From NCBI GenBank assembly GCA_944391345.1, contig CALXTE010000005.1, positions 22,050 through 86,049 of the forward strand: a DNA stretch of 64,000 nucleotides, written 5' to 3'. This DNA is from an uncultured Alphaproteobacteria bacterium (lineage in GTDB: Bacteria; Pseudomonadota; Alphaproteobacteria; RF32; CAG-239). Positions 30,390 to 38,219 of this stretch are shown here, piece by piece (position 1 is the first letter of the stretch; the number at the start of each line of letters is the position of its first letter). Made by a program: the position numbers and the translations under genes. The notes under the pieces are model-generated. The model had not been told where the DNA came from. It was given only the letters and a program-made list of their open reading frames with translations, and did no database searches.

Positions 30390-31163
30390 TCATACTTCTG
30401 GTACATTAGGATATCCGCATTGTGAGCCACCTGATGGTCGAGTGCCTGCTATGCAGGAATCATGGCAATCATCCCAATAATAGCCGCTTTTGCACTTACA
30501 AGATCGATACTTACCCCCACAACTCGAGCCAGAACCACCATCCTCATTTGCTCCTGTACAAGAATATTTATAACTGGATGAACAAACACAATCACCGCTG
30601 CTCCAAGTATAAGGAGAAGAACAGGAGCAAGATGTATATTTTCCGCCACAAGCAGTTCCAACTGGACTTTCATAAGCGCCCGTGCAAGAATATTGATAAC
30701 TACTGGAGCAATTTGATTTGCATTTTCCGCTACTCCATATATAATTACTGGAACAATTGCATTTTGCATATTTATTATCACAATCCGTTCCATTACCACC
30801 GGAATATCCGGTTCCCGTACAAGTATATTTGTATTTTGTCGGGCAGCTACAAGCTGTTCCGCTCCAAGTATAAGGAGAAGTACATTTGCAAGACTTATAT
30901 TTATTTTCACAAGAATCGCCACTACCGGCAGAATATCCGGTTCCAACACAAGAATACAGGAATCCGTTATCTGCACATACCATTTCAGCATCTGTCAAAC
31001 AAGCCCATTTATCGCCCCAAGGGCATTTGACACCACCGTTTGGACAAGATGATTCCGTATAGCCCAAGCTTTCGCAATCAGGGGAAGACGTGCAAGTTGT
31101 TTGTGCAACCGTTGACAACGGAAATAATACAACAGCGCTTGTCATTAATATAATTTTTCTCAT
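30390..31163 (-). CDS. Secreted cysteine-rich repeat protein
   Basis: 257 residues. A signal peptide (KIILMTSAVVLFPLSTVAQ) is followed by a Cys-rich mature chain of at least four imperfect ~40-residue repeats, each of the form Y-x-YSCTG-...-G-x-x-C-x-x-KY-x-SC-x-CSSPYTWS-x-G-x-C. Cys, Gly, Ser and Tyr dominate, so a disulfide-stapled surface or secreted protein is likely. The first ~45 residues share the CTSSPDCESLGYTESSCPNG style with the end of the upstream neighbour (CTALGYKKTTCSG, LKCPYD), so the two proteins are related. Ribosome binding site AAGGAG. Function unknown. Confidence 0.65.
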   Translation of the reverse strand: MRKIILMTSAVVLFPLSTVAQTTCTSSPDCESLGYTESSCPNGGVKCPWGDKWACLTDAEMVCADNGFLYSCVGTGYSAGSGDSCENKYKSCKCTSPYTWSGTACSCPTKYKYTCTGTGYSGGNGTDCDNKYAKCNCSSNYIWSSGKCKSNCSSSYQYSCTGAYESPVGTACGGKYTSCSCSSPYTWSSGDCVCSSSYKYSCTGANEDGGSGSSCGGKYRSCKCKSGYYWDDCHDSCIAGTRPSGGSQCGYPNVPEV

Positions 31164-31184: not shown

Positions 31185-32213
31185 TTAAAGACACAGCACA
31201 TAAGCGCTGTCATAAGGACATTTTAATGTCTTGCCGCTACAAGTTGTTTTTTTATAGCCTAAAGCTGTACAGTCTGTTGTTGGCAGTGTACAAAAGTTGG
31301 TGTAACCACTTTGACAGCCGGTTGTATACCACAAACCGGAACAAGCTTCATATTCGCAATTTGTGCCTGTTGGACAGCTTGAAAAAGTACCCAAGTTTGG
31401 GCAAGGTTTGCAGTTGTCGTATTTTATTTGTGAACCGGACATACAGGTTTGTGCGCCGGTATCGCCACCCATAACGCCGCAATCTTGAAATCCGTCACAA
31501 GGATTAATCTTGATTTTATATTTGCTCGTTCCGTTGCAATCAACACAAGCGGTACCATCAGCAATATATCCTTCGGGAATAGTCGTGTAATCATAACCTT
31601 CGCAAAGATTACAACATTTTCCGAATGTGGCGTCATATTCGCAAGCATTATTCGGATCGACTTTCCAGCCTGTTTGGCAGGTGTCAGTAAATTCAGAATC
31701 TAGCTCCGTACAAGCACGCTCGGTGTCTTCTTCGCAAGACGCATATTTATTTCCGCAAGCCGTACCGACGCCATAATAAGGTGGTTCGCAAGTTTTGTAA
31801 CCAGAGGGGCAAACGCAACGGGCAAAGTAATTACTGTTATAAATACAAAAACCTTCTGGCGTTTCTCCCGCGGCACAAGAAGTTAGTCCATAACCTTCTT
31901 TGCGGCAACGTTCGGCGTCATTCAAATCATAATCAGGCGCCCCACCGGAGCCGCCATTTCCGCCATTGTTTTCGGTATTACCAAACGCTTCGCCGCTACA
32001 AGCCGCGGTATCATTAATAAAGCACACCGCCGCCAATTTAATCTCATCAGGAGAAGACAAGCCCGAGGCCGGAGAATAGAGGTGTGTGTGAAGTGTGTTG
32101 ATAAGTCGTTCTCCACCCTCGGTAAAAGAAATATCAGCCATTGCGCTCATCGGCAACAATACGGCCGCCGACAGCATTGCGGCCAAAACCGCATAATTCC
32201 GCGAATTCAACAT
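31185..32213 (-). CDS. Secreted cysteine-rich protein with Gly/Asn linker
   Basis: 342 residues. The signal peptide (NYAVLAAMLSAAVLLPMSAMA) is followed by an N-terminal region without repeats (ISFTEGGERLINTLHTHLYS), a Gly/Asn-rich linker (about 78-92) and a chain of about 30 Cys in CxxGY, CEPPYYGVGTACGNKYASC and similar modules. The end (DCTALGYKKTTCSGKTLKCP) matches the beginning of the downstream protein, 21 bp away, so the pair is probably an operon from one ancestral module set. No known domain recognised; EGF-like or adhesin-like surface exposure is a guess. Confidence 0.65.
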   Translation of the reverse strand: MLNSRNYAVLAAMLSAAVLLPMSAMADISFTEGGERLINTLHTHLYSPASGLSSPDEIKLAAVCFINDTAACSGEAFGNTENNGGNGGSGGAPDYDLNDAERCRKEGYGLTSCAAGETPEGFCIYNSNYFARCVCPSGYKTCEPPYYGVGTACGNKYASCEEDTERACTELDSEFTDTCQTGWKVDPNNACEYDATFGKCCNLCEGYDYTTIPEGYIADGTACVDCNGTSKYKIKINPCDGFQDCGVMGGDTGAQTCMSGSQIKYDNCKPCPNLGTFSSCPTGTNCEYEACSGLWYTTGCQSGYTNFCTLPTTDCTALGYKKTTCSGKTLKCPYDSAYVLCL

Positions 32214-32318: not shown

Positions 32319-32347
32319 TTGACTCACAAAAATTGTTGTATTAAACT
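32319..32347 (+). promoter_or_regulatory. Consensus promoter of the ileS leader transcript
   Basis: TTGACT (32319-32324), exactly 17 nt, TAAACT (32342-32347). Transcription would start near 32354, just before the ribosome binding site of the leader ORF. Confidence 0.7.
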
Positions 32348-32374
32348 ACTCCCAGTTTTTAAGGAAGACAAAAT

Positions 32375-32422
32375 ATGATGCAAGATTTTTACATATCTCA
32401 AATTTTCATTATTATCCCTTAG
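32375..32422 (+). CDS. Ile-rich leader peptide of ileS (putative attenuator)
   Basis: A 15-codon ORF read directly from the sequence: MMQDFYISQIFIIIP, then TAG. It has a good ribosome binding site (AAGGAAG, 32361-32367, 7 nt from the ATG) and sits between a consensus promoter and ileS. Five of 15 codons are Ile, three in a row just before the end, while ileS makes the enzyme that charges tRNA-Ile. That pairing is the classic logic of a leader peptide at which ribosomes stall when charged tRNA is scarce. The assignment is inference from position and composition; it is too short for statistical support alone. Confidence 0.6.
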   Translation: MMQDFYISQIFIIIP

Positions 32423-32435
32423 GGGATAGATTTTC
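32413..32435 (+). promoter_or_regulatory. Hairpin over the end of the leader ORF
   Basis: TATCCC (32413-32418), loop TTAG, GGGATA (32423-32428), then GATTTTC. The left arm covers the last Ile and Pro codons and the loop holds the stop codon. A ribosome stalled at the Ile codons would keep it open. It is short with a weak T-tract, so terminator strength is uncertain. Confidence 0.45.
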
Positions 32436-32508
32436 TTGCATAAATAATATAAATTTTTTTTCACGACATTTTTTTTATTTAATCAATAAGTTATAGGATG
32501 TTTTATAG

Positions 32509-35500
32509 ATGACAAAACATTATGCAGAGGTTAAGGCAAAGCCTGACTTTGTCGAGCTTGAAAAAGAAGTTTTGAAGTTTTGGGAAGAAGATAAAACTTT
32601 TGAAAAGTCGGTTCACAACCGTGACGGCGCTGCCGAATTTGTGTTTTATGACGGCCCTCCGTTTGCGAACGGAACCCCGCACTATGGGCACATTATGGTG
32701 TCTTATGTCAAAGACGTTGTCGCACGTTTTCAAACGATGAATGGCAAAAAAGTTGAACGTCGCCTTGGCTGGGACTGTCACGGTCTTCCGGCCGAAATGT
32801 CGGCTGAAAAACAGCTTGGCGTCTCGGGACGTAAACAAATTGAAGAATATGGGGTTGAAAAGTTTAACAACTTCTGCCGCTCTGATGTTTTGAAATATTC
32901 TGGCATTTGGGTAAATATGTTTAAGCGTATCGGCCGCTGGGTTGATTTCAATCACGATTATAAGACCATGGACTTGCCGTTTATGGAAAGCGTTATCCAT
33001 AACTTCAAGGAACTCTATGATAAGGGCTTGGTTTATGAAGACTACCGCGTTTTGCCTTATTCTTGGGCCGCAGAAACGCCTTTGTCAAACTTTGAGGTAA
33101 ATTTAGGGTATCAAGAAAAGACCGATAACGCCATCACCGTTATGTTTAAGCTCGAAAACGGGATGAATATTCTGGTCTGGACAACCACACCATGGACCTT
33201 GCCGTCAAACTTAATGCTGGCTGTTGGTAAAGATATTGATTACGCCGTCATGGAAGAAAACGGCCAGAAATATATTTTGGCACAGGCTCTTCTCGGACGT
33301 TATAAAAAACAACTTGAACACGCCACCCAAGTCGGCACGATTAAAGGCAGCAAACTGTTGGGCTTGAGCTATGAGCCGATGTTCCCTTACTTTAAGGACT
33401 TAAAAGCCAAAGGTGCGTTTAAGGTCTTGAGCGGAGACTTTGTCTCGACCGAAGACGGAACCGGTGTCGTTCACATCGCCCCCGGATTCGGCCAAGACGA
33501 CTTTGACGCTTGCCGCGCTTATGATAAAGACTTTCCGGTTGTTTGTCCGGTTGATGAGGCCGGCAAATTTACTGCCGAAGTTCCCGACTATGAAGGTAAA
33601 CAGGTTTTTGAGACCAACGAACCGATCATGCAGTTGTTGAAAGAAAAGGGAATTTTGGTCAAAAAAGAACAATATACGCACTCTTATCCATTCTGCTGGC
33701 GCACCGACACGCCGTTAATTTATAAAGCAATGTCAAGCTGGTTTGTTAAGGTAACGGATTTCCGTGATGAAATGGTTAAGAACAATCAGCAGATCAACTG
33801 GATTCCGGAGCATATTAAAGACGGCCGCTTTGGCAAATGGCTTGAAGGCGCAAGAGATTGGTCAATTTCGCGCAACCGTTTTTGGGGAACGCCGATTCCG
33901 GTCTGGAAGTCGGATAATCCAAAATTCCCAAGAATAGATGTTTTCGGCTCGATTGAAGAAATAAAAGCCAAAACCGGACATACTGTGACCGACTTGCACA
34001 AGCCTTATATTGACGGTGTTGTTTACCCCAATCCGGATGATCCGTCGGGCCAAACCATGATGCGCCGCGTGAGTGATGTTTTTGACTGCTGGTTTGAGTC
34101 AGGCTCAATGCCTTACGCACAGGTTCATTATCCGTTTGAAAACAAAGAATGGTTTGAAAGTCATTTTCCGGCTGACTTTATTGTTGAGGCGATGGACCAA
34201 ACTCGTGGTTGGTTCTATACCTTGACCGTGCTTTCAACTGCTTTGCACAATCGTCCGGCCTTTAAGAATTGTATCTGCACCGGTTTGTTGATGGCAGAAG
34301 GCGGGCAAAAGCTTTCAAAACGTCTGAAGAATTATCCTGACCCCAATGAGATTTTGGAAAGTATTGGTTCAGACGCTTTGCGTTGGTTCTTGGTATCTTC
34401 TCCGGTATTAAAGGGTGGAAACTTAGCCGTTGATAAAGAGGGCAAAGAAATCGCCAAAGCCTCAAGAATTGCTCAAATCCCGCTGTGGAACGCCTTTTAT
34501 TTCTTCACGCTTTATGCGAATGCCGAAGAATATCAGGCCAAAGAGATTTCTCATTCTTCTGAGGCGATTGATAATTACATCTTGTCAAAACTCAAGAGAT
34601 TAAGAGATGTCGTTAAGTCTGGGCTTGAAAGCTATGATGTTGCACAGGCCACGAACGAAACGGCAACCTTCATGGAGATTTTGAACAACTGGTACATCCG
34701 CCGCACCCGTGACCGCTTCTGGGAAGGTGATACTCAGGCCTTTGACACGCTGTATACGGTTTTGGTAAATGTTGCCAAGATAATTGCTCCATTAATGCCT
34801 TTTGTCAGCGAATATGTTTACAAAACCCTGACCGGCGGTGAGTCTGTACACCTGACCGATTATCCGACCTTGAGCGAGATTACCGAAGACAAAGACCTTG
34901 TTGAGAAGATGGACTTTGTTCAAGACCTTTGCTCAACCGGTAAGTTTATTCGTGAGGAAAAGAACCTCCGCAACCGCTTGCCGTTAAGAAGCTTGACGGT
35001 TGTCGGGGCTGAATTGTCTCCGGCCTATCAAGAGATTGTCAAAGACGAATTAAATGTCAAAGAAGTCTTGTTTGATAGTGCCTTAGAGAACTATGCCGAG
35101 AAAAAAGTTTATCTTTACACCCCGCTTTTGGGTAAGACTTTGGGCAAAGATATGGGCGCTGTTATGGCAGCCTATAAGCAAGGCCAGTGGCAGCTTAAGG
35201 AAGACGGCAGCTTGCAAATCGCCGGCAAAGAACTTGGAACAGATTTGTTTGAAGTTCGCTTGGAGATGAAGCCAGGCGTCGCCGGCAAGGCCTTTGCTGA
35301 TAACAAAGCTGTTGTCACGCTGGACACGGTTGTTACCGATGATCTCAAGCGCGAGGGCATGGCGCGTGACTTTGTCCGCTTGGTACAAACCTTAAGAAAG
35401 GACAAAGACTTCAACATCTCAGACAGAATAGAGCTCTGTTATGAAACCTCTGATGCTGAGTTGGCAAAAGCTTTGGAAGAAAACAAAGACTACATTGCCG

Positions 35501-35613
35501 AGCAGGTTTTAGCCTTGAAGGTTGAAAAAGGCTGCCCGAACGGCACCGAGGCGGATATTGAAGGCGCCAAGCTCAAATATGACGCCAAAGTCTGCAACGC
35601 CAAAGTTGCTTAA
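32509..35613 (+). CDS. ileS: Isoleucyl-tRNA synthetase, eukaryote-like type
   Basis: Class Ia synthetase, 1034 residues. The HIGH motif is in PPFANGTPHYGHIM (HYGH at 58-61) followed by WDCHGLPAE. The editing domain holds TTTPWTLPSN and GTGVVHIAPGFGQDDF. The catalytic loop reads GGQKLSKRLKNYPDP, so the KMSKS equivalent is KLSKR (about 601-605). Length, the KxSKRLKNYPDP wording and the lack of a C-terminal zinc-finger cysteine set put it in the IleRS type that resembles eukaryotic cytosolic enzymes (often more tolerant of mupirocin; family knowledge, not shown here). It lies behind a leader ORF rich in Ile codons. Confidence 0.96.
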   Translation: MTKHYAEVKAKPDFVELEKEVLKFWEEDKTFEKSVHNRDGAAEFVFYDGPPFANGTPHYGHIMVSYVKDVVARFQTMNGKKVERRLGWDCHGLPAEMSAEKQLGVSGRKQIEEYGVEKFNNFCRSDVLKYSGIWVNMFKRIGRWVDFNHDYKTMDLPFMESVIHNFKELYDKGLVYEDYRVLPYSWAAETPLSNFEVNLGYQEKTDNAITVMFKLENGMNILVWTTTPWTLPSNLMLAVGKDIDYAVMEENGQKYILAQALLGRYKKQLEHATQVGTIKGSKLLGLSYEPMFPYFKDLKAKGAFKVLSGDFVSTEDGTGVVHIAPGFGQDDFDACRAYDKDFPVVCPVDEAGKFTAEVPDYEGKQVFETNEPIMQLLKEKGILVKKEQYTHSYPFCWRTDTPLIYKAMSSWFVKVTDFRDEMVKNNQQINWIPEHIKDGRFGKWLEGARDWSISRNRFWGTPIPVWKSDNPKFPRIDVFGSIEEIKAKTGHTVTDLHKPYIDGVVYPNPDDPSGQTMMRRVSDVFDCWFESGSMPYAQVHYPFENKEWFESHFPADFIVEAMDQTRGWFYTLTVLSTALHNRPAFKNCICTGLLMAEGGQKLSKRLKNYPDPNEILESIGSDALRWFLVSSPVLKGGNLAVDKEGKEIAKASRIAQIPLWNAFYFFTLYANAEEYQAKEISHSSEAIDNYILSKLKRLRDVVKSGLESYDVAQATNETATFMEILNNWYIRRTRDRFWEGDTQAFDTLYTVLVNVAKIIAPLMPFVSEYVYKTLTGGESVHLTDYPTLSEITEDKDLVEKMDFVQDLCSTGKFIREEKNLRNRLPLRSLTVVGAELSPAYQEIVKDELNVKEVLFDSALENYAEKKVYLYTPLLGKTLGKDMGAVMAAYKQGQWQLKEDGSLQIAGKELGTDLFEVRLEMKPGVAGKAFADNKAVVTLDTVVTDDLKREGMARDFVRLVQTLRKDKDFNISDRIELCYETSDAELAKALEENKDYIAEQVLALKVEKGCPNGTEADIEGAKLKYDAKVCNAKVA

Positions 35614-35783: not shown

Positions 35784-36920
35784 ATGGCTGACATAAAAGA
35801 TTATGAAGACCAAATCAAAGAAATCGGAAAAAATAAAAATTGGTCTGACGAAAAAATCAAAAAAGAGATTGAGAAGATTCATGACACCCATGAGAGCGAA
35901 AGAGAAAGCTATGTCGACAAATTAAAAAAAGAAGAGAACGATAATGATGGCGCTGCCACCACAATGAAAGAACTTGAAGATAAAGTCCCTGAAGATAAAG
36001 AAGGTAACAAACCGGAAGATAAAGATCTAATGGAAAAAAGGCGAGACGCCTTAAAAAAATATGCCGATGAAAACGGTCTTGATTTTGAAGAAGAAAAAGA
36101 TGGCTCATTCAAAATCGGCGGCGGAAGGGTTGCATACAATGGCCCCAAAATCTATACCTCAGCCAGTGCGGATTACGGCGTCTTTTTAACCGTAGCCAAA
36201 ACAGAAAAAGCAAATGGCTCTAAAGGGGTAATCATTGACGGAGAAAGCCAAGAATTTAAAGAAAAAGTAACCGCAGCATGCATTCAAACGGGGCTAAAAT
36301 TTAAAAACGGAGCTCGTTATATTGATTTAAATAGTAAGTATTTTAAGAACTTGGATGAGGCGACAAAAGAAAAAATAACAGATTATAACGAAAAGAACAA
36401 GGTCGAAGACAATTACAAAGCCAAAGTTGCTGAATATAAAAAGTTAAAAGAAAACAATGGGTCATTAGATTTCAGTCAGATTAAAGACCCGACAGAAAGA
36501 TTAATAGCCTATACGGCAGCCAAAGAAACAGGATTAAACATCACCAATCTGGCCAATGATGAGCTCATCTATGATGAAAAGAAAAATCCGGAAAAGAAAA
36601 AAGATATAGAAAGAGCGCGCGCTGCCATTAATGGCGTAAGAGATAAAAATGCAGTTAAAGAAGATGCCTTTGATATGCATGAAAGAAGAGTAAAATCGCT
36701 GCAAAGAATGCGCCAAGAAGTCAAAGACGGCACCCGCCACCGTGGAGAATACACTCAAGACGGACAAAAGAAAGAAGCACAGTTACGCCAAACGATTAAT
36801 GGCACAACCTATCATGTTGACCGTAAAGATGTCGCAACGGAAAATGTGGCAGGTAAAGAACAATATAAGAAGAACAATATAGGCAAATACATGTTAAGAA
36901 ATCGAGAAGGCGGAAGATAA
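35784..36920 (+). CDS. Charged protein, tandem paralogue 1
   Basis: 378 residues, very rich in Lys, Glu and Asp, with no signal peptide or membrane segment. The N-terminal ~45 residues (MADIKDYEDQIKEIGKNKNW...) predict coiled coil. A low-complexity acidic/Lys linker follows (about 50-90). A conserved domain (about 125-250) has YGVFLTVAKTEK, AACIQTGLKFKNGARYIDL and YFKNLDEATKEKI. The second half carries DPTERLIAYTAAKETGLNIT, LANDELIYDEKKNPEKK and RVKSLQRMRQEVKDGTRHRG, shared almost word for word with the next gene. Same GGAGAACGACA ribosome binding region as its paralogue. Family and function unknown. Confidence 0.65.
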   Translation: MADIKDYEDQIKEIGKNKNWSDEKIKKEIEKIHDTHESERESYVDKLKKEENDNDGAATTMKELEDKVPEDKEGNKPEDKDLMEKRRDALKKYADENGLDFEEEKDGSFKIGGGRVAYNGPKIYTSASADYGVFLTVAKTEKANGSKGVIIDGESQEFKEKVTAACIQTGLKFKNGARYIDLNSKYFKNLDEATKEKITDYNEKNKVEDNYKAKVAEYKKLKENNGSLDFSQIKDPTERLIAYTAAKETGLNITNLANDELIYDEKKNPEKKKDIERARAAINGVRDKNAVKEDAFDMHERRVKSLQRMRQEVKDGTRHRGEYTQDGQKKEAQLRQTINGTTYHVDRKDVATENVAGKEQYKKNNIGKYMLRNREGGR

Positions 36921-36947: not shown

Positions 36948-38219
36948 ATGGCTGATATAAAAGATTTTGAAGACCAAATAAAAGAAATCGCTAAAGACAA
37001 AAATTGGTCAGATGAAAGATTGAAAAAAGAGCTCGCAAAGCTTCAAAAAATGCCTGAGGATAAAAGAGAAAGCTATATTGAAAAATTGAAAAAAGAAGAT
37101 TCTGATAAAGACCCCCAATCTCAAAATAAACCAAAAGAAGATAATGGCAATCAAGGGGCGGACAAGCCCAAAGACAATAATCAGGTTGTGATTGATGAGC
37201 CTGAGGCCGAAGATGAAGAAAATAAAGAAGAAAATAAAAAAGAGGTTAAGGTAAGCGAAAATAAAGACGACAAACCGCAGCCAAGCGCAGAAAATACGAA
37301 CCAAGACTGGAAAGCTTTGCGCCGTGAAGAATGGAAAAAGTTTGCAGAGAAAAAAGGCAAAGAGTTTGCCGAAACCACAGAGGCCCAAGCACCGGATTTA
37401 GGCCTAAAGGTTGGCGCTGATAATATTCATTATCAAGACCGCTCTAATGTGAATATGAGCAACGGGGAATATGATCAGTTCTTGACCCTTGTTCAAATTG
37501 AAAAAAAGGATAAAACCGAAGTTATAAATTTTGGCGACATCAAAAGTGATGACTATAAAGCCAAACTCGCTGCTGCCTGCGTTCAAGAGGATATGAAGTT
37601 CAAAAACGGCCCACGCTATATTGACTTGAACATGGAATGTTTTAAGAATTTGGACGATGCAACCAAGGCCAAGATTAATGACTTTAATGAAAAGAACAAA
37701 ATCGAAGATAAGTATAAAGCCAAGGTTGAGGAGTTGAAAAAGCTCAAAGAAGGTAAGGGCGCACTTGATTTTGGCCAGATTAAAGATCCGACGGAAAGAT
37801 TAATTGCCTACACGGCAGCCAAAGAAACTGGCGTAAAAATAACGAATCTTGCCAATGACGAGCTCATCTATGATGAAAAGAAAAATCCTGAAAAGAAGCA
37901 AGAAATCGAAAGAGCGCGCAAGGTTATAAACGGTATAAGGAATAAAAGCGCAGTAAAAGAAGATGTTTTCAAGCTTCACGAAGATAGAGTCAGCTCTCTG
38001 CAAAGAATGCGCCAAGAAGTCAAAGACGGCACCCGCCATCGTGGCGAATTCACCAAAGACGGCAAAAAACAGGAAGCAAGCTTAAAACAAACCATCAACG
38101 GCACAACCTATCATGTAGATCGCAAAGACGTTCAAACCGAGGTTGCCGACGGCAAAGAAAAATATGTTAAAAACGATTTAGGCAAATATGTTTTGAAAAA
38201 ACGTGATAACAGCAGATAA
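36948..38219 (+). CDS. Charged protein, tandem paralogue 2
   Basis: 423 residues, 27 bp after paralogue 1 and clearly its duplicate: matching MADIKDFEDQIKEIAKDKNW start, matching AACVQEDMKFKNGPRYIDL, DPTERLIAYTAAKETGVKIT and INGTTYHVDRKDVQ. It differs by a longer disordered acidic linker (about 45-120, rich in Lys, Glu, Asn, Asp and Pro). No export signal. The near-identical ribosome binding site and start (GGAGAACGACAATGGCTGA) show the duplication includes the translation start. The role is unknown; scaffold or filament-associated protein is speculation. Confidence 0.65.
   Translation: MADIKDFEDQIKEIAKDKNWSDERLKKELAKLQKMPEDKRESYIEKLKKEDSDKDPQSQNKPKEDNGNQGADKPKDNNQVVIDEPEAEDEENKEENKKEVKVSENKDDKPQPSAENTNQDWKALRREEWKKFAEKKGKEFAETTEAQAPDLGLKVGADNIHYQDRSNVNMSNGEYDQFLTLVQIEKKDKTEVINFGDIKSDDYKAKLAAACVQEDMKFKNGPRYIDLNMECFKNLDDATKAKINDFNEKNKIEDKYKAKVEELKKLKEGKGALDFGQIKDPTERLIAYTAAKETGVKITNLANDELIYDEKKNPEKKQEIERARKVINGIRNKSAVKEDVFKLHEDRVSSLQRMRQEVKDGTRHRGEFTKDGKKQEASLKQTINGTTYHVDRKDVQTEVADGKEKYVKNDLGKYVLKKRDNSR

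Follow-up and report, generated by a model that had tools for sequence, protein, structure and literature searches.

The isoleucyl-tRNA synthetase gene ileS of an uncultured alphaproteobacterium (GTDB order RF32, family CAG-239) is preceded by a short, Ile-rich leader open reading frame (ORF), which is probably part of a cis-acting, ribosome-mediated attenuator that senses the charging of tRNA-Ile through a hairpin, P2. The locus lies in a 64,000-nucleotide (nt) stretch of contig CALXTE010000005.1 (assembly GCA_944391345.1, positions 22,050 to 86,049, forward strand), called the window below. Comparison with related genomes revealed the Ile-specific ORF, P2 with a T-rich tract behind it, a second, covarying helix (P1), and one version of the leader with Thr codons before thrS. 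Judged by this comparison, the Ile-specific leader ORF is conserved before ileS in this order far beyond chance.

An initial annotation, made from the window alone, had proposed an isoleucine attenuator here, and the promoter, ribosome binding site, 15-codon ORF MMQDFYISQIFIIIP, hairpin and ileS that it listed are all present where it placed them (Table 1). The ORF ends in ATT ATT ATC CCT TAG, and about 85 nt separate the expected transcription start, put at about 7 nt past the -10 box, from the end of the T-rich tract. The hairpin has a weak, short stem, as that annotation had remarked, and its size is 7 pairs with G-U counted rather than 6. Within 1.5 kb, promoter-like sites number 7 against 3.4 (standard deviation 1.7) in shuffled sequences. 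The hairpin alone is unremarkable, with 3 terminator-like sites in 1.5 kb compared with 1.6 (standard deviation 1.2) in shuffles. In folding, the 106-nt leader has a modest advantage over shuffles, of which 17 in 200 do as well (z = -1.59). Neither the hairpin nor the fold stands out in the single sequence; the case rests on comparison.

Loci were taken from 57 genomes, comprising the window's own and its relatives (30 loci), and from a scan of GTDB contigs (80 loci, the best 80 of 240 encoding a relative). An ileS start was located in 109 of the 110, one locus without the N-terminus (L027) being left out; the two sets have species in common and yield 89 distinct leaders, or 66 after a 90% identity filter. 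An ATG-started ORF with an Ile-Pro-stop end was found upstream of ileS in 106 of the 109 loci, its ATG lying 13 to 16 codons before the stop in each; the search pattern matched in 0 of 109 shuffled regions. This pattern fixes ATC, CC and the stop, so construction accounts wholly or in part for the last two codons, for an ATG in frame and for the lack of frame-0 stops, but not for the third-last codon, the Ile content per frame, P1 or the T-tract. The pattern also matched the reverse strand in 70 of the 109 regions because the hairpin is almost its own reverse complement. The three loci lacking a leader are one cut by a contig end (L060) and two from a single genus, g4 (L028 and L029). A sequence-only model, R1, was built from the 66 leaders and run on the 57 genomes and on 154 genomes of the order. 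It matched in 128 of the 154 at E 0.003 or better, with adjacency to ileS not confirmed genome by genome and one match, in G067, false on inspection. Of 20 genomes listed as unmatched, 17 belong to genus g4, and 6 further ones lie outside that list. The ileS of genus g4 is 76% identical to that of the window, and its differing upstream region suggests that control has been lost or replaced there.

In line with the check that the initial annotation had put forward, the last Ile codons and the hairpin are kept in the relatives while other codons drift. Where there was a choice of ATG, the one bringing the length closest to 14 codons was used, giving leaders of 14 codons in 57 of the 89, 15 in 27, 13 in 4 and 16 in 1; 13 leaders have more than one choice within 17 codons, and the other 76 are 14 codons long in 50 cases, 15 in 21, 13 in 4 and 16 in 1. 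Since relatives show lengths of both 14 and 15 codons, either ATG of the window (32375 or 32378) fits. Counting back from the stop, codon -1 is Pro and codon -2 Ile in 89 of 89 leaders, as set by the search pattern, and codon -3 is ATT (Ile) in 88. Ile is also found at codons -4 (51 leaders), -6 (49), -7 (36) and -9 (64). In the interior, taken as codons 4 to -4, Ile accounts for 264 of 737 codons (36%) in frame 0, 68 of 648 (10%) in frame 1 and 49 of 648 (8%) in frame 2. Across 40 representatives, the interior is 35.0% Ile (115 of 329) versus 13.1% (standard deviation 1.7%) in shuffled interiors. Stops in the leader interior number 50 in frame 1 and 21 in frame 2, and by construction none in frame 0. 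Apart from Ile, the peptide body is variable, and the Pro-stop ending, with Pro set by the search pattern, is conserved.

A promoter-like site also accompanies the leader in the relatives, where the best site within about 110 nt 5' of it has at least 9 of 12 consensus matches in 77 of the 89 and a TTGACN -35 box is found in 70; the same scan of the 67-117 nt between the leader stop and ileS reaches 9 in 16 of 89. That the region is a conserved promoter-proximal element without regulatory function, its ORF arising by chance, is strongly disfavoured and in our view exceedingly improbable, given the in-frame Ile enrichment, the R1 matches across the order, and the covarying P1 and conserved T-tract described below. 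ATA makes up 122 of the 269 leader Ile codons (codons -3 and -2 excluded), and its share of Ile codons elsewhere is 18.4% in the long ORFs of the window and 8.6% in the downstream ileS genes. At codon -9 (window positions 32393-32395), 62 of the 64 leaders with Ile use ATA, rare though it is in ileS.

P2 is almost invariant in the 89 leaders. The Ile-Pro codons set its 5' arm, the stop codon (TAG in 77, TAA in 9, TGA in 3) falls within its loop, and GGGGAT or GGGAT directly follows the stop in 86. The minimum free energy of the 28-nt P2 segment averages -7.5 kcal/mol, with a range of -5.5 to -12.9 kcal/mol. After P2, the T frequency is 60-80% at positions 5-12, and 86 of the 89 leaders have at least 5 T in 8 nt, compared with 157 of 341 spacer windows. 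Viewed as a candidate intrinsic terminator, P2 has this tract behind it in 86 of 89 leaders, a weak stem and an offset of about 5 nt to the tract.

The second helix, P1, pairs the start-codon region of the leader with bases just 3' of P2; in the window it covers the second ATG, and it had been missed in the initial annotation. The duplex energy of a leader's own P1 arms averages -10.43 kcal/mol, as against -7.34 kcal/mol for permuted arms, and 0 of 5000 permutations did as well (n = 89). The covariation persisted in less redundant sets of 61, 40 and 27 leaders (z = -8.9, -7.5 and -5.7; 0 of 5000 permutations each) and was gone in a control with one arm reversed (2466 of 5000). In 82 of 89 leaders, the own pair exceeded the row median. 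The gap from P2 to the 3' arm of P1 is within 6 nt in 44 leaders, 7-8 nt in 7 and at least 9 nt in 38.

A leader of the same build with in-frame Thr codons was found in a genome from another family of the order (G033), where R1 matched before thrS (E = 4.4e-4). The gene behind it was assigned from a 192-amino-acid fragment, for which the best NCBIfam model is TIGR00418 at 110 bits, under the whole-protein cut-off of 384; the first codons of this thrS are masked with N in the record. Of the five places in this genome with the motif CCCYTRRGGG, two have TAG, namely the leaders of ileS and thrS. P1 is weak in the thrS leader (-4.9 kcal/mol). This was the only Thr leader among 30 thrS upstream regions examined; in the window's family, thrS appears to closely follow another reading frame, and no Thr leader was seen. 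A single Thr case is limited evidence, yet the match of codons to synthetase is what a charging sensor would predict. The same codons bear on the idea that the RNA binds a protein, for example in autoregulation by isoleucyl-tRNA synthetase (IleRS) resembling that by ThrRS at E. coli thrS, with the ORF incidental. Such an element could account for an almost invariant P2, a covarying P1 and a codon -3 fixed as ATT more than the amino acid alone demands, but not for an Ile enrichment confined to the reading frame or for in-frame Thr codons before thrS, and we consider it very unlikely.

We favour ribosome-mediated sensing of tRNA-Ile charging. Transcription from the promoter at 32319 would produce a leader transcript with an ORF of 14-15 codons, the terminal Ile-Ile-(Ile)-Pro codons of which form the 5' arm of P2, with the stop in the loop and the T-rich tract next. 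When Ile-tRNA is plentiful, the ribosome would complete the leader and depart, allowing P2 to form; in the window's family, P1 would then close over the emptied leader start codon, and transcription would stop or be held back before ileS. Under scarcity of Ile-tRNA, the ribosome would be held on the terminal Ile codons, P2 would stay open, and RNA polymerase would run on into ileS. We infer translation of the leader in the cell, an effect of P2 (alone or together with P1) on transcription elongation, and this direction of the response. The reading of the initial annotation is partly supported, by the conserved Ile-specific ORF and by a Thr counterpart at one thrS, while leader translation and termination at so short a stem keep the conditional standing they had.

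The scheme was explored with a footprint model in which the ribosome covers 15 nt upstream and 11 nt downstream of the first base in the A site, applied to the 40 representatives and ignoring ribosome bulk. The mean P2 probability is 0.00 when the A site lies anywhere from codon -4 to the stop, compared with 0.95 without a ribosome, and in the latter state P1 and P2 occur together in 81% of sampled structures. A ribosome at codon -9 lets P2 form and P1 mostly not (0.24 to 0.30).

Several observations weigh against this scheme. Ile is also common at codons -9 to -6, and a ribosome placed there in the footprint model does not interfere with P2; on codons -7 and -6, P1 and P2 are both possible (0.72 and 0.85). 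Stalling at these codons would favour termination under starvation, unless the switch requires P1 as well or the codons only pace the ribosome. Ribosome bulk by itself might keep P1 from closing round it. P2 would also be kept open by a ribosome that waits at the Pro-stop. No alternative antiterminator pairing was found in the leaders, the ORF interior showing no covariation with the start, post-hairpin or spacer segments. With no mutually exclusive antiterminator detected, a classical trp-type layout is not claimed, and the ribosome itself would have to block P2. When wider segments are used for P1, the own partner comes out on top for only 3 of the 89 leaders, with a median rank of 17 among 89, as would be expected if arms are shared between related leaders. 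P1 is also poor in the ileS leader of a sister family (L030; -4.4 kcal/mol, rank 89), so P1 may be an addition in the window's family. The two loci seen from genus g4 have no leader. Finally, a weak P2 with its T-tract about 5 nt beyond makes a poor textbook terminator.

This last point counts in favour of the main rival explanation, in which the same Ile leader and the same ribosome sensing act through Rho-dependent termination in the C-rich, G-poor spacer, with access shaped by P2 and P1. A model for such an output is TnaC of E. coli, a short ORF ending in Pro-stop with a spacer before the gene, whose nascent peptide arrests the ribosome in response to free tryptophan and acts through Rho. 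The present leader shares the Pro-stop ending and the spacer ahead of the gene, and differs from TnaC in that the peptide body is variable whereas the hairpin and T-tract are conserved. The spacers contain 607 C and 226 G (sum of the 89 leaders), in favour of this reading; however, the leader ORF has the same bias (840 versus 307), which is thus not special to the spacer, and a T-rich tract kept beyond the spacer background is not needed by Rho. We judge this output unlikely. Our estimate for the favoured scheme covers sensing through P2, and the Rho reading shares its sensing part, so the likelihoods given here do not sum to one.

Control at the translation of ileS, the fallback of the initial annotation, would require the leader structure to mask the ileS ribosome binding site (RBS) until a stalled ribosome frees it. 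Translational control has been predicted for the ileS T-boxes of Actinobacteria (PMC1262725). In our set, permuted pairs between the ileS RBS and the leader were at least as good as own pairs in 1951 of 2000 cases for the ORF interior, 2000 of 2000 for the post-hairpin segment, 2000 of 2000 for the spacer and 557 of 2000 for the leader start. The RBS therefore covaries with none of the four segments and avoids three of them, indicating that control is more likely exerted on transcription than on ileS initiation and making the fallback highly improbable.

Leader-peptide attenuators are known from pheST as well as from trp and his. For trp and his, ribosome release at the leader stop has been modelled as a source of basal read-through (PMC1183508). 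Like these and ilv, the proposed attenuator has a short ORF rich in cognate codons and a hairpin after the control codons. The proposed attenuator differs in that no separate antiterminator was found, one hairpin arm consists of the control codons and the hairpin loop contains the stop; most leaders seen also have an outer helix over their start codon. Among synthetase genes, predicted leader peptides include those of leuS and trpS in some Streptomyces (PMC1262725) and, in bacilli, those of hisS paralogs (PMC2965389). The closest geometry is that of E. coli pyrBI, where the leader pyrL responds to pyrimidine supply via the speed of RNA polymerase. A ribosome coupled across the pyrL ORF prevents the terminator hairpin (PMC5021804). 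The ORF described here likewise overlaps the hairpin it would control, its stop lying inside the P2 loop, whereas its signal is proposed to be read through cognate codons. The difference between Ile and Thr codons suggests a signal other than nucleotide sensing of the pyrBI type.

T-boxes bind tRNA directly and need no ORF. Those before ileS in Actinobacteria and Firmicutes also provide RNA-level control by tRNA-Ile (PMC1262725), unlike the present ORF-based element, which has no T-box match at the Rfam gathering score. A search of Rfam 15 at gathering scores, its T-box model included, gave no match to the leader, and the sole match in the window is a tRNA; four sub-threshold matches overlap the leader region (E 0.65 to 4.9). 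The view of the initial annotation that no peptide leader was known for an ileS of this kind needs tempering, because an 'ileS leader CDS (CCNA_03934)' (CDS, coding sequence) of Caulobacter crescentus is named as a negative control in a figure legend of a ribosome-profiling study, which also has a small CDS before trpS (PMC4117421). It represents a leader CDS before ileS in another alphaproteobacterium and is likened to ours by name only. A human-microbiome RNA motif, HMP2_2419, is known from the vicinity of valS, leuS and ileS (PMC8040213). No description of this ileS element was found among the papers listed in searches of open-access literature (titles and abstract openings), which, together with the lack of an Rfam match at gathering score, points to a new form of leader-peptide attenuation.

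More tentatively, and with somewhat less confidence than doubt, the leaders of this order may belong to a class of synthetase attenuators that is modular. Its members would end in X-X-Pro-stop, with the sensing codons as hairpin arm, the stop in the loop and, in the window's family, P1 over the start codon; they would act as one-hairpin vacancy sensors without an antiterminator, their specificity set by codon swap (Ile for ileS, Thr for thrS). The findings suggest a compact design by which an uncultured gut alphaproteobacterial lineage would tune an essential synthetase to the charging of its own tRNA. If this is true, an attenuator can work without an antiterminator, and a change of codons is enough to direct the same scaffold to another amino acid. 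The leader architecture also supplies a rule for finding short ORFs that are unannotated in metagenomes.

Table 1. Features of the ileS leader locus (window positions) and of the Thr leader of G033
Feature	Position	Strand	Basis
Sigma-70-like promoter of the leader-ileS transcript; -35 TTGACT 32319-32324, -10 TAAACT 32342-32347, 17 nt between	32319..32347	+	9/12 consensus bases
Shine-Dalgarno-like AAGGAAG of leader ORF	32361..32367	+	sequence only
Leader ORF, 15 codons, MMQDFYISQIFIIIP-TAG; second in-frame ATG at 32378	32375..32422	+	comparison of relatives
P1, 5' arm ATGCAAGA, includes second ATG	32378..32385	+	covariation and folding
Putative regulatory codons Ile-Ile-Ile (ATT ATT ATC)	32408..32416	+	codon conservation in relatives
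P2, TTATCCC-TTAG-GGGATAG; 5' arm from terminal Ile/Pro codons, stop in loop, 3' arm GGGATAG	32412..32429	+	
T-rich tract 3' of P2, ATTTTCTT	32430..32437	+	
P1, 3' arm TCTTGCAT; shares bases with the end of the T-rich tract	32434..32441	+	covariation and folding
A/T-rich spacer, C far in excess of G in relatives	32442..32492	+	
ileS, isoleucyl-tRNA synthetase, MupA/MupB-like (eukaryote-like) type	32509..35613	+	TIGR00392, 883 bits
Thr leader MLILFKNYTTTTFTTTP-stop, hairpin AACCCCTTAGGGGTT, stop in loop	L136:510-602 = G033:C114:4909-5001	+	upstream of thrS

The genomic context was read for 20 R1 matches, picked from the weaker matches and from matches at contig ends. Four lie before ileS (L195-L198), two are of the ileS type and cut by a contig end (L139, L194), and one is the thrS case (L136). 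The other 13 are not leaders, none having a short ORF that ends Pro-stop in a hairpin before a gene; examples are L131, L132 and L135, before a 172-amino-acid gene, L133, L188, L190 and L192, which overlap a longer frame, and L189, the false match of G067. In the window's own genome, CCCYTRRGGG gives 17 matches at 12 places, the pattern missing leaders with other hairpins; an ATG-started short ORF ending in Pro-stop is present at three of these places, with a gene behind it at the ileS one only. No Ile-rich ORF ending in Ile-Pro-stop was found in 20 ileS upstream regions from 23 class-level genomes, a search that other leader forms would escape, and the upstream regions of the nearest type-2 ileS relatives (G054, G035 and G036) were read and carry no leader.

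The ileS product scores 733-735 bits against the MupA/MupB models, under their cut-offs of 1900. Eukaryote-like IleRS is often insensitive to mupirocin, and mupirocin, one of the tests suggested in the initial annotation, may fail on this ileS. Divergent from ileS are two genes for Cys-rich proteins (30390-31163 and 31185-32213, both on the minus strand), one of them repeat-containing, with a possible signal peptide seen by eye. Downstream, the adjacent plus-strand genes at 35784-36920 and 36948-38219 encode similar products with a MADIKD[YF]EDQIKEI... start and alike C-termini, apparently the result of a tandem duplication.

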